This document shows positions 2,635 through 3,516 of a DNA stretch of 33,570 bases, one piece after another. A program made the translations under genes and the position numbers. Position 1 is the first letter of the stretch. Each line of letters begins with the position of its first letter. The DNA comes from a bacterium (GTDB taxonomy: Bacteria; CLD3; SB21), in the NCBI GenBank assembly GCA_016787925.1, contig JAEUSK010000217.1, positions 1 through 33,570 on the forward strand. Direction: 5' to 3'. The notes under the pieces were generated by a model. It saw only the letters and a program-made list of their open reading frames with translations, did no database searches and was not told where the DNA came from.

Positions 2635-2865
2635 ATGCAAATTTTTAAACGTATCACTTTTGACCCGCAGGTGATGGGCGGCCAAGCCTGTGTCCGGGGA
2701 ATACGAATTCCGGTGTCTCTCATCATTAATCTGATAGCCAATGGCATGTCTACAGAGGCAATTCTAAAAGAATACCCCGATCTCGAAGCGGAAGACATCA
2801 AGGAATGTCTGCATTATGCCGCGTGGCTTGCCAAAGAAGAATTACACTCGGCTGCAGAGGCTTAG
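2635..2865 (+). CDS. DUF433 antitoxin-like protein
   Basis: A 76-residue protein of the DUF433 family, small winged-helix-like DNA-binding proteins usually found as the antitoxin partner of DUF5615 PIN-like toxins. The family signature is clear: an N-terminal ITFDPQVMGGQACVRGIRIP (residues 7-26), then a helix-turn-helix-like part containing GMSTEAILKEYPDLEAEDI, followed by LHYAAWLA. The ATG at 2635 gives the normal family length. It would bind and neutralise the toxin encoded immediately downstream and repress the shared promoter; that role is known for the family, not shown here. The upstream region holds mobile-element debris, so the pair was probably carried in with it. Confidence 0.85.
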   Translation: MQIFKRITFDPQVMGGQACVRGIRIPVSLIINLIANGMSTEAILKEYPDLEAEDIKECLHYAAWLAKEELHSAAEA

Positions 2866-2866
2866 T

Positions 2867-3229
2867 TTGAAATTTCTTGCAGATATGGGAATATCCCAAA
2901 CAACGGTTCGATGGCTCAAAGATAATGGTTACGATGCCATTCATCTGAGAGAACTTAATCTGCATCGACTGCCGGATTCGAAGATCATCGAAAAAGCAAG
3001 AGATGAAGGAAGAATAATACTCACTTGCGATTTGGATTTTGGCGCGTTGATGTCCGCCTCACAGGGAACTTTGCCAAGTGTCATTATTTTCAGACTGGAA
3101 GATGAAACACCAATCAATATCAACAACAGATTAAAGACCATTCTAAAAGACGTTACCGCCGCTCTTGATCGTGGCGCTATCATAAGTGTAGAAGAAAAGA
3201 GACATCGCGTTCGTTTCTTGCCTGTTTAA
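2867..3229 (+). CDS. DUF5615 PIN-like toxin (probable RNase)
   Basis: A DUF5615 protein, the Mut7-C/PIN-like fold, presumed metal-dependent ribonuclease toxin. I place the start at the TTG at 2867, one base after the antitoxin stop, because this yields MKFLADMGIS, the standard family N-terminus; AGAGG sits about seven bases upstream. An ATG at 2816 in the same frame would add 17 residues read out of the antitoxin gene and is unlikely. The product is then 120 residues. Candidate metal-binding acids are Asp6, Asp37, and Asp55 and Asp57 in TCDLDFG. Its neighbour is the DUF433 antitoxin, the usual partner and usual order. The start codon and the near-zero spacing suggest translational coupling. 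Confidence 0.85.
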   Translation: MKFLADMGISQTTVRWLKDNGYDAIHLRELNLHRLPDSKIIEKARDEGRIILTCDLDFGALMSASQGTLPSVIIFRLEDETPININNRLKTILKDVTAALDRGAIISVEEKRHRVRFLPV

Positions 3230-3261
3230 CGGATTCTTCTTCTATCATTCTATTTGAAAAT

Positions 3262-3288
3262 AAAAAACCCGAGCAATTAACTCGGGTT
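3262..3288 (-). terminator. Intrinsic terminator after the broken tRNA-Leu copy
   Basis: An 8-bp perfect stem (3266-3273 with 3281-3288, AACCCGAG/CTCGGGTT) with a 7-base loop. On the minus strand it is followed by six T residues. It lies immediately beyond tRNA remnant A. It could also serve the converging toxin gene, though the plus-strand side lacks a T-run. Confidence 0.75.
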
Positions 3289-3292
3289 ATAG

Positions 3293-3393
3293 TACCGAAG
3301 GTGGGACTTTCAGCCAGAGGCTGATGCGCCTTTGGCGCAGAACCCACACGAGATTTGAGTCTCATCCCGCCGATGGCGGGACGCGGTCTGCCA
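3293..3393 (-). pseudogene. tRNA-Leu-derived remnant A with three perfect palindromes
   Basis: On the minus strand this repeats the intact tRNA-Leu from the D-arm (TTGGCAGAC) through the variable arm and T-arm to CCCACCTTCGG. The 5' acceptor half is missing. The anticodon arm is replaced by a 17-base perfect palindrome (3365-3381; 7-bp stem, 3-base loop), the same length as the arm it replaces. The T-loop is split between TTC and AAGT by exactly 30 bases, two abutting 15-base palindromes (3310-3324 and 3325-3339; each a 6-bp stem and 3-base loop). The variable-arm stem is GAGA/TCTC rather than AGGA/TCCT, so both sides changed together. This suggests origin from a different, once functional tRNA-Leu. 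Confidence 0.7.
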
Positions 3394-3426
3394 AATAAAA
3401 AATCCCGCCTTGTTCAAACGGGATTT
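3394..3426 (-). terminator. Intrinsic terminator of tRNA-Leu
   Basis: The stem AAATCCCG/CGGGATTT (3400-3407 with 3419-3426) with an 11-base loop is followed on the minus strand by a T-rich run. It begins four bases after the 3' end of the tRNA. Confidence 0.75.
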
Positions 3427-3430
3427 AGAG

Positions 3431-3516
3431 TGCCGAAGGTGGGACTTGAACCCACACAGGATTTGAGTCCTACTGGATTTTGAGTCCAGCGCGTCTGCCA
3501 ATTCCACCACTTCGGC
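3431..3516 (-). tRNA. tRNA-Leu (anticodon CAA)
   Basis: An intact 86-base type II tRNA on the minus strand. Seven-base-pair acceptor stem GCCGAAG/CTTCGGC, discriminator A at 3431, D-arm with TGGCAGAC, and anticodon arm CTGGA-CTCAAAA-TCCAG with anticodon CAA, reading UUG. It has the long variable arm typical of Leu (AGGA/TCCT stem) and a T-arm GTGGG-TTCAAGT-CCCAC. CCA is not encoded. A terminator follows. The leftward-facing 3' end is where tRNA-targeting integrases recombine, and integrase debris and broken copies of this same tRNA lie on that side. Confidence 0.96.

Follow-up and report, generated by a model that had tools for sequence, protein, structure and literature searches.

A palindrome-marked partial tRNA-Leu copy, probably an ORF-less form of a proposed GIY-YIG element that would rebuild the tRNA gene it interrupts

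In the stretch of bacterial DNA analysed here (the window, 33,570 nucleotides), an intact tRNA-Leu gene is followed by a block at positions 3292-3426 that holds a terminator-like hairpin and a partial copy of the same tRNA with two palindrome-altered arms. By analogy with loci of related genomes, where a gene for a free-standing GIY-YIG protein lies between an intact tRNA and its marked copy, this block probably represents a GIY-YIG tRNA-homing element in a miniature or decayed form that has no ORF; such an element would rebuild the tRNA gene it interrupts. The features are as follows:

3430-3516, minus strand: intact tRNA-Leu gene, anticodon CAA (ARAGORN; Rfam RF00005, 56.8 bits)
3393-3426, minus strand: terminator-like hairpin AAATCCCGTTTGAACAAGGCGGGATTTTTTATTT, part of the extra block (from the sequence; no counterpart in the sister genome G002, L016/L296)
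3292-3392, minus strand: partial tRNA-Leu copy from the D-loop to the 3' end, two arms altered by palindromes (sequence comparison)
3365-3381, minus strand: 17-nt palindrome TCCCGCC-ATC-GGCGGGA at the anticodon arm, tRNA positions 27-43 (comparison by eye; same boundaries in other lineages)
3325-3339, minus strand: T-loop palindrome TGCGCC-AAA-GGCGCA, after TTC (sequence and folding)
3310-3324, minus strand: T-loop palindrome TCAGCC-TCT-GGCTGA, before AAGT (sequence and folding)
3262-3288, minus strand: original tRNA-Leu terminator AACCCGAGTTAATTGCTCGGGTT with a T run (the G002 counterpart lies directly 3' of the intact tRNA)

Read on the minus strand from 3392 to 3292, the marked copy is GGCAGACCGCG-TCCCGCCATCGGCGGGA-TGAGACTCAAATCTCGTGTGGGTTC-TGCGCCAAAGGCGCA-TCAGCCTCTGGCTGA-AAGTCCCACCTTCGGTAC. 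It has no 5' end, the acceptor 5' strand and most of the D-arm being missing, and its first bases are those of the D-loop, GGCAGA. The 17-nt palindrome TCCCGCCATCGGCGGGA stands precisely where the intact gene has its anticodon arm, also 17 nt long (CTGGACTCAAAATCCAG). The variable arm is retained, and the changes in its stem are compensated (GAG..CTC for AGG..CCT). Inside the T-loop, with TTC on one side and AAGT on the other, lies the 30-nt palindrome pair. The preliminary description of this DNA had placed these two palindromes at 3325-3339 and 3310-3324 and had claimed that taking out exactly 30 nt restores the T-arm. Rereading of the sequence bears out both statements, as the copy without the 30 nt has the T-arm GTGGGTTCAAGTCCCAC, identical to that of the intact tRNA-Leu(CAA); the third palindrome, at the anticodon arm (3365-3381), had been missed. 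Folded alone, the 30-mer forms two perfect hairpins (-11.9 kcal/mol as DNA, z = -4.5). The 33.6-kb window holds nine perfect hairpins with a 6-bp stem and a 3-nt loop, and three of these lie inside 71 bp in the tRNA-Leu copy, a clustering expected about once per 800 trials for nine random positions. The tRNA block is adjoined by a DUF433 gene and an overlapping DUF5615 gene (Mut7-C/PIN-like; 2635-3229, plus strand), a layout usual for small toxin-antitoxin pairs.

A comparison with empty sites in close relatives had been proposed earlier, and the sister genome G002 was found to lack the whole block, copy and extra terminator together. Its tRNA-Leu is directly followed by the terminator that in the window's genome (G000) comes after the copy; the G000 copy and the first terminator are therefore one extra block. 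Similar extra blocks are present in G000 at tRNA-Val (about 99 bp), Arg-CCG (about 254 bp) and Pro-TGG (about 335 bp), the last of which holds a broken GIY-YIG ORF. At tRNA-Ala, two tandem GIY-YIG units are found in G001 and the site is empty in G002; immediately past the palindrome the two genomes are homologous again, across the final 31 nt of the tRNA.

The flanks of 129 tRNA genes of G000, G002 and G006, with added G001 loci, were surveyed within 800 bp. Partial tRNA copies were found in 14 cases, and all 14 carry a GC-rich palindrome from one of several palindrome families, although in two of them (L318 and L320) it is imperfect. In G000, G001, G002 and G006, 3' partial copies located downstream of tRNA genes have the 30-nt doublet, or a variant, in their T-loop; the tRNAs concerned are Tyr, Leu, Met/Ile-CAT, Arg, Ser and Pro, and both orientations occur. 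A tRNA-Lys copy in G006 has both its D-arm and its T-arm replaced while the acceptor stem and the anticodon arm are kept, and a cloverleaf fold is still predicted for it. At another G000 locus (L002, G000:C55, 244-397), two more partial tRNA-Leu copies have a palindromic anticodon arm, and because the T-loop is empty in the L002 copy that reaches the T-arm, arm swap and T-loop insertion look like separate events. At L039 in G006 (G006:C161, minus strand, about 3084-3345), the end of tRNA-Pro and its terminator are repeated in tandem; the doublet is present in the T-loop of the two downstream copies and absent from the intact tRNA-Pro, and its orientation is opposite to that in the Leu case.

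The position of the palindromes within the tRNA was assessed for 31 automatically scored cases, each with tRNA sequence at both sides. Seven of the 31, at six loci (L081 twice, L283, L360, L375, L376 and L395), have exact 26|44 boundaries, so that positions 27-43 are replaced, and the same exact replacement was recognised by eye in the window copy and in L340. Were the left boundary equally likely at any of 50 positions, at least seven of 31 at one given boundary would have a probability of about 2e-6, which is only a rough guide because the boundary was picked after looking and the seven include two copies of one locus. Other replaced arms are the T-arm (L254, L390), the D-arm (L254), the variable arm (L370) and half an anticodon arm, and some palindromes are simply inserted into a D- or T-loop with nothing replaced.

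In the window's family, one class of GIY-YIG genes directly adjoins tRNAs (L323, L336, L338, L340 and L347) and another class does not. The full anatomy is seen at L347, where tRNA-Ser is followed by a terminator, the GIY-YIG gene, GTGAGTTC, the palindrome pair, GAATCTCACTCTCTCCGCCA and a near-identical second terminator. The marked copy may lie upstream or downstream of the gene, so the element occurs in two mirror forms. The proteins of the related loci match Pfam PF01541 with 56-64 bits, well over the cut-off; Y5, Y16, G18, R26 and E62 are invariant in 13 sequences, and the motif and the catalytic Glu are conserved. Their nearest solved relatives are UPF0213 proteins and SLX1, which is a structure-specific nuclease. 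A protein profile was built from 13 such GIY-YIG proteins, and its members were found in 91 of 290 genomes. Among the high-scoring independent loci, counted with the profile members excluded, 29 of 44 are no more than 200 bp from a tRNA and share its strand in every case; 27 have a partial tRNA copy and 18 a detected palindrome. Only one of 23 low-scoring stand-alone GIY-YIG genes is as close to a tRNA (Fisher p about 1e-6), and none has a palindrome. As the profile was built mainly from tRNA-adjacent genes, this adjacency applies to the subfamily and not to stand-alone GIY-YIG proteins in general. In other phyla, 12 GIY-YIG ORFs were found in 816 kb, and 10 of them are at tRNA-associated sites, 56-741 bp away from the doublet. 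The other stand-alone class (FTKKY..REKRIKKW), represented by L324, L339 and L346 in G005 and G004, has flanking palindromes of its own, for example CACCCGCGAACGCGGGTG.

A free-standing GIY-YIG domain is thus encoded at the related loci and not in the window block, in which only about 140 bp separate the end of the tRNA from the old terminator and no GIY-YIG gene is present. The ORFs at 3180-3365 and 3310-3510 (minus strand) are short and not GIY-YIG-like by eye. In the whole of G000 the only GIY-YIG gene near a tRNA is the one at tRNA-Pro (G000:C295), and it is broken. With no such gene in the block and the sole tRNA-near one broken, the window copy is linked to the element by analogy, which suggests its descent from such an element rather than from another process that spreads palindromes.

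The palindromes had previously been read as a mobile or copied mini-element and not as a product of random decay. The second half of this reading holds, as the arrangement is non-random: the 30-mer recurs with few mismatches elsewhere in G000 and in genomes of the same family, where a reversed control pattern gave no matches, and the doublet is found in many phyla, so that it is not the single-copy sequence that would have made a mobile unit unlikely. The larger block, a palindrome-marked partial tRNA copy adjoining an intact tRNA, was overlooked; the T-loop insertion is only one detail of it, and the palindrome may be a part or a footprint of a GIY-YIG element rather than itself the mobile unit. 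For the wider search, GTDB contigs were scanned with the exact pattern GCC-N3-GGCGSATCAGCC-N3-GGCTG, for which less than one chance match is expected (by arithmetic, assuming uniform base composition). A search across the window's own phylum covers only the nine genomes it holds. At least 114 stretches in many phyla carry the pattern, and among the matches listed are those from Patescibacteria, Omnitrophota, Elusimicrobia, WOR-3/Stahlbacteria, Ignavibacteria, Bacteroidota, Chloroflexota, Deltaproteobacteria and others. In the matches listed, the consensus beyond the fixed bases is TCCGCC-NNA-GGCGGA-TCAGCC-TNN-GGCTGA, mostly with TT before and RA after it. A second, uninterrupted copy of the site lies within 1.5 kb at 21 of the 117 sites listed from other phyla (about 18%), compared with one of 1170 random positions, and these 21 sites are mostly tRNA D-loops or T-loops. 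About 80% of the dispersed 30-mers listed from other phyla have no second site copy nearby. As most of the listed doublets of other phyla are away from tRNAs, the palindromes travel or persist also apart from tRNAs and GIY-YIG genes.

Dispersed doublets outside tRNAs are also present in G000, G002 and G006. Those of the family (L035, L040, L046, L048, L050, L051, L006 and L009) lie beside long purine- or pyrimidine-rich inverted repeats, ttctttcttttg..caaaagaaag, and their surroundings are alike, which gives the impression of a larger repeated intergenic unit. General insertion into the loops of inverted repeats was considered and rejected, since flank complementarity at 118 of the sites listed was no higher than with shuffled partners. 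In viral contigs the exact doublet was found in ten stretches (L428-L437), two of them from one contig, and in the stretches examined it was not at GIY-YIG genes.

The sequences show the layout, found again in many lineages, the shared strand of gene and tRNA, the place of the palindromes and the difference between sister genomes; from these comparisons we infer a cycle of cutting and homing. In its full form the element would consist of an intact tRNA gene, a terminator in some cases, a stand-alone GIY-YIG gene and a partial tRNA copy with a palindrome; in the mirror form, the palindrome-marked copy and the GIY-YIG gene would lie upstream of the tRNA. A GC-rich palindrome would be received by a loop of the displaced copy or would stand in place of a whole arm. 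The GIY-YIG enzyme would cut the tRNA gene at or near an arm, and an occupied locus would serve as the template for repair by recombination, the flank shared between the two being the tRNA gene itself. The endonuclease gene would be copied in together with the missing part of the tRNA, so that one complete tRNA would be rebuilt and the displaced part would come to lie on the far side of the gene. The palindrome would mark the joint, and through it the displaced copy would lose its cleavage site. The enzyme should still be able to cut the rebuilt intact tRNA, which is a difficulty for the model, and the tandem units (L323, L083, L039) may result from repeated cutting. Because SLX1 is among the closest solved relatives, action on folded arms is plausible, and the C-NNN-G centre of the common palindromes resembles what we take to be the cleavage motif of the GIY-YIG enzyme I-TevI. 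The exact exchange of whole arms goes beyond what ordinary homing explains. A speculative and rather doubtful extension would be that a minimal SLX1-like GIY-YIG nuclease cuts the base or loop of an arm, that the arm is swapped for a standard hairpin while an intact tRNA is rebuilt alongside, and that the dispersed palindromes are interchangeable parts or footprints of such hairpin exchange.

The 15-nt palindromes or the 30-nt doublet could instead be independent mobile mini-elements, comparable to mitochondrial double-hairpin elements or REP/REPIN units, that insert at TT^RA-like sites, with the GIY-YIG genes a separate matter; insertions in intact tRNA genes would be lethal, so that only those in already duplicated tRNA fragments would survive. 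This explanation would account for the dispersed copies outside tRNAs in G000, G002, G006 and at most of the 117 sites of other phyla, for the TT^RA flank preference and for the two units in inverted order with loops NNA and TNN (all as far as the matches listed go), as well as for T-loop doublets in both orientations. However, all 14 partial tRNA copies carry palindromes, and these are of several different sequences, so that tRNA duplication and palindrome must be linked. Moreover, whole arms are replaced and not merely interrupted, and the GIY-YIG genes lie precisely between the intact and the marked tRNA copies, which together make the explanation unlikely. A RAYT/Y1 transposase was tried as the mover; genes for it are present in G000-G002 and G006, but the examined flanks carry other palindromes.

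The block could also be the scar of a tyrosine integrase, which duplicates the 3' part of a tRNA on integration; a later deletion would leave the tRNA, a short insert and the displaced 3' part. The 3' type of the element does have this geometry (an entire tRNA, then a new terminator, the displaced 3' fragment and the old terminator), but such a scar leaves unexplained the mirror 5' type, the palindromes, the replacement of arms and why unrelated genomes have a GIY-YIG gene at that same place. No integrase was noticed by eye in the short stretches between tRNA copies; the window block is too short for an integrase gene, and the longer blocks elsewhere hold GIY-YIG genes. We consider such a scar very improbable. 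Random tandem duplication and decay of a tRNA gene, with hairpins arising by replication slippage, appears scarcely credible: tandem partial copies with terminators do exist (L039, L002), but identical stem sequences in many phyla contradict it, and exact arm boundaries and three hairpins clustered at one pseudo-tRNA also speak against it.

To our knowledge, what small stand-alone GIY-YIG proteins do in uncultured bacteria is largely open, and the GIY-YIG homing element proposed here would give one subfamily a target, the tRNA genes, and a searchable footprint. That unrelated lineages should have whole arms exactly replaced by a different hairpin is unexpected, and a mechanism of structure-guided cutting or copying would be needed to account for it. 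A testable origin is offered for part of the short palindromic repeats scattered in candidate-phylum genomes, and as a warning for annotation, partial tRNA genes beside tRNAs may be element borders.

A search of the literature on double-hairpin elements, Rickettsia palindromic elements and GIY-YIG genes with tRNAs returned analogues only and no description of this element, and a text search for the letters of the doublet gave unrelated strings only. As in REP and REPIN sequences, which RAYT transposases mobilise, short palindromic units are paired in inverted order, but at the Y1 loci examined the palindromes described here have no link to Y1 transposase genes. We know of no replacement of tRNA arms as a feature of REP sequences. 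In the Allomyces atp6/ORF360 type, an endonuclease gene reportedly comes with a duplicate of one portion of its host gene, which keeps the host gene working while the original portion is displaced; unlike the tRNA elements, this concerns a mitochondrial protein gene, and palindromes are not known at its joints.

The double-hairpin elements of Allomyces mitochondria (Paquin et al. 2000, cited in PMC2800124) and the hairpin elements of sponge mitochondria (PMC2800124) are short and repeated and occupy intergenic regions and structural RNA genes, in Allomyces with no flanking target duplication, according to passages of PMC2800124. Their layout is similar to that of the present doublets, a likeness of description and not of sequence, but those passages describe neither a linked endonuclease gene nor the replacement of whole arms in tRNA copies. 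In phages T4 and T6, the genes of SegB and other free-standing GIY-YIG homing endonucleases lie among or beside tRNA genes, and a SegB-type endonuclease promotes inheritance of the tRNA region (PMC2988022; PMC13096335, both in extract). In T6, SegB drives tandem amplification of tRNA and endonuclease gene by recombination (PMC13096335, in extract). A free-standing GIY-YIG gene by tRNA genes and tandem units are thus common to both systems. Unlike the phage-borne SegB, however, the present gene is chromosomal, encodes about 80-90 aa and abuts the tRNA, and the extracts of these accounts are silent on tRNA copies with palindromes or swapped arms and on any rebuilding of the interrupted tRNA (PMC2988022; PMC13096335). 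Insertions in CPR rRNA genes differ in that rRNA genes are interrupted and that the words 'tRNA' and 'palindrom-' are absent from the text of PMC11270868; a rebuilt gene copy is not described in the sections consulted. According to the same sections, some of these insertions, which fall outside both group I and group II introns, code for GIY-YIG proteins, other unclassified ones are mostly short and ORF-less, and most lie at the top or base of rRNA stem-loops (PMC11270868). They fit the same theme, and a common origin with the present elements is possible.
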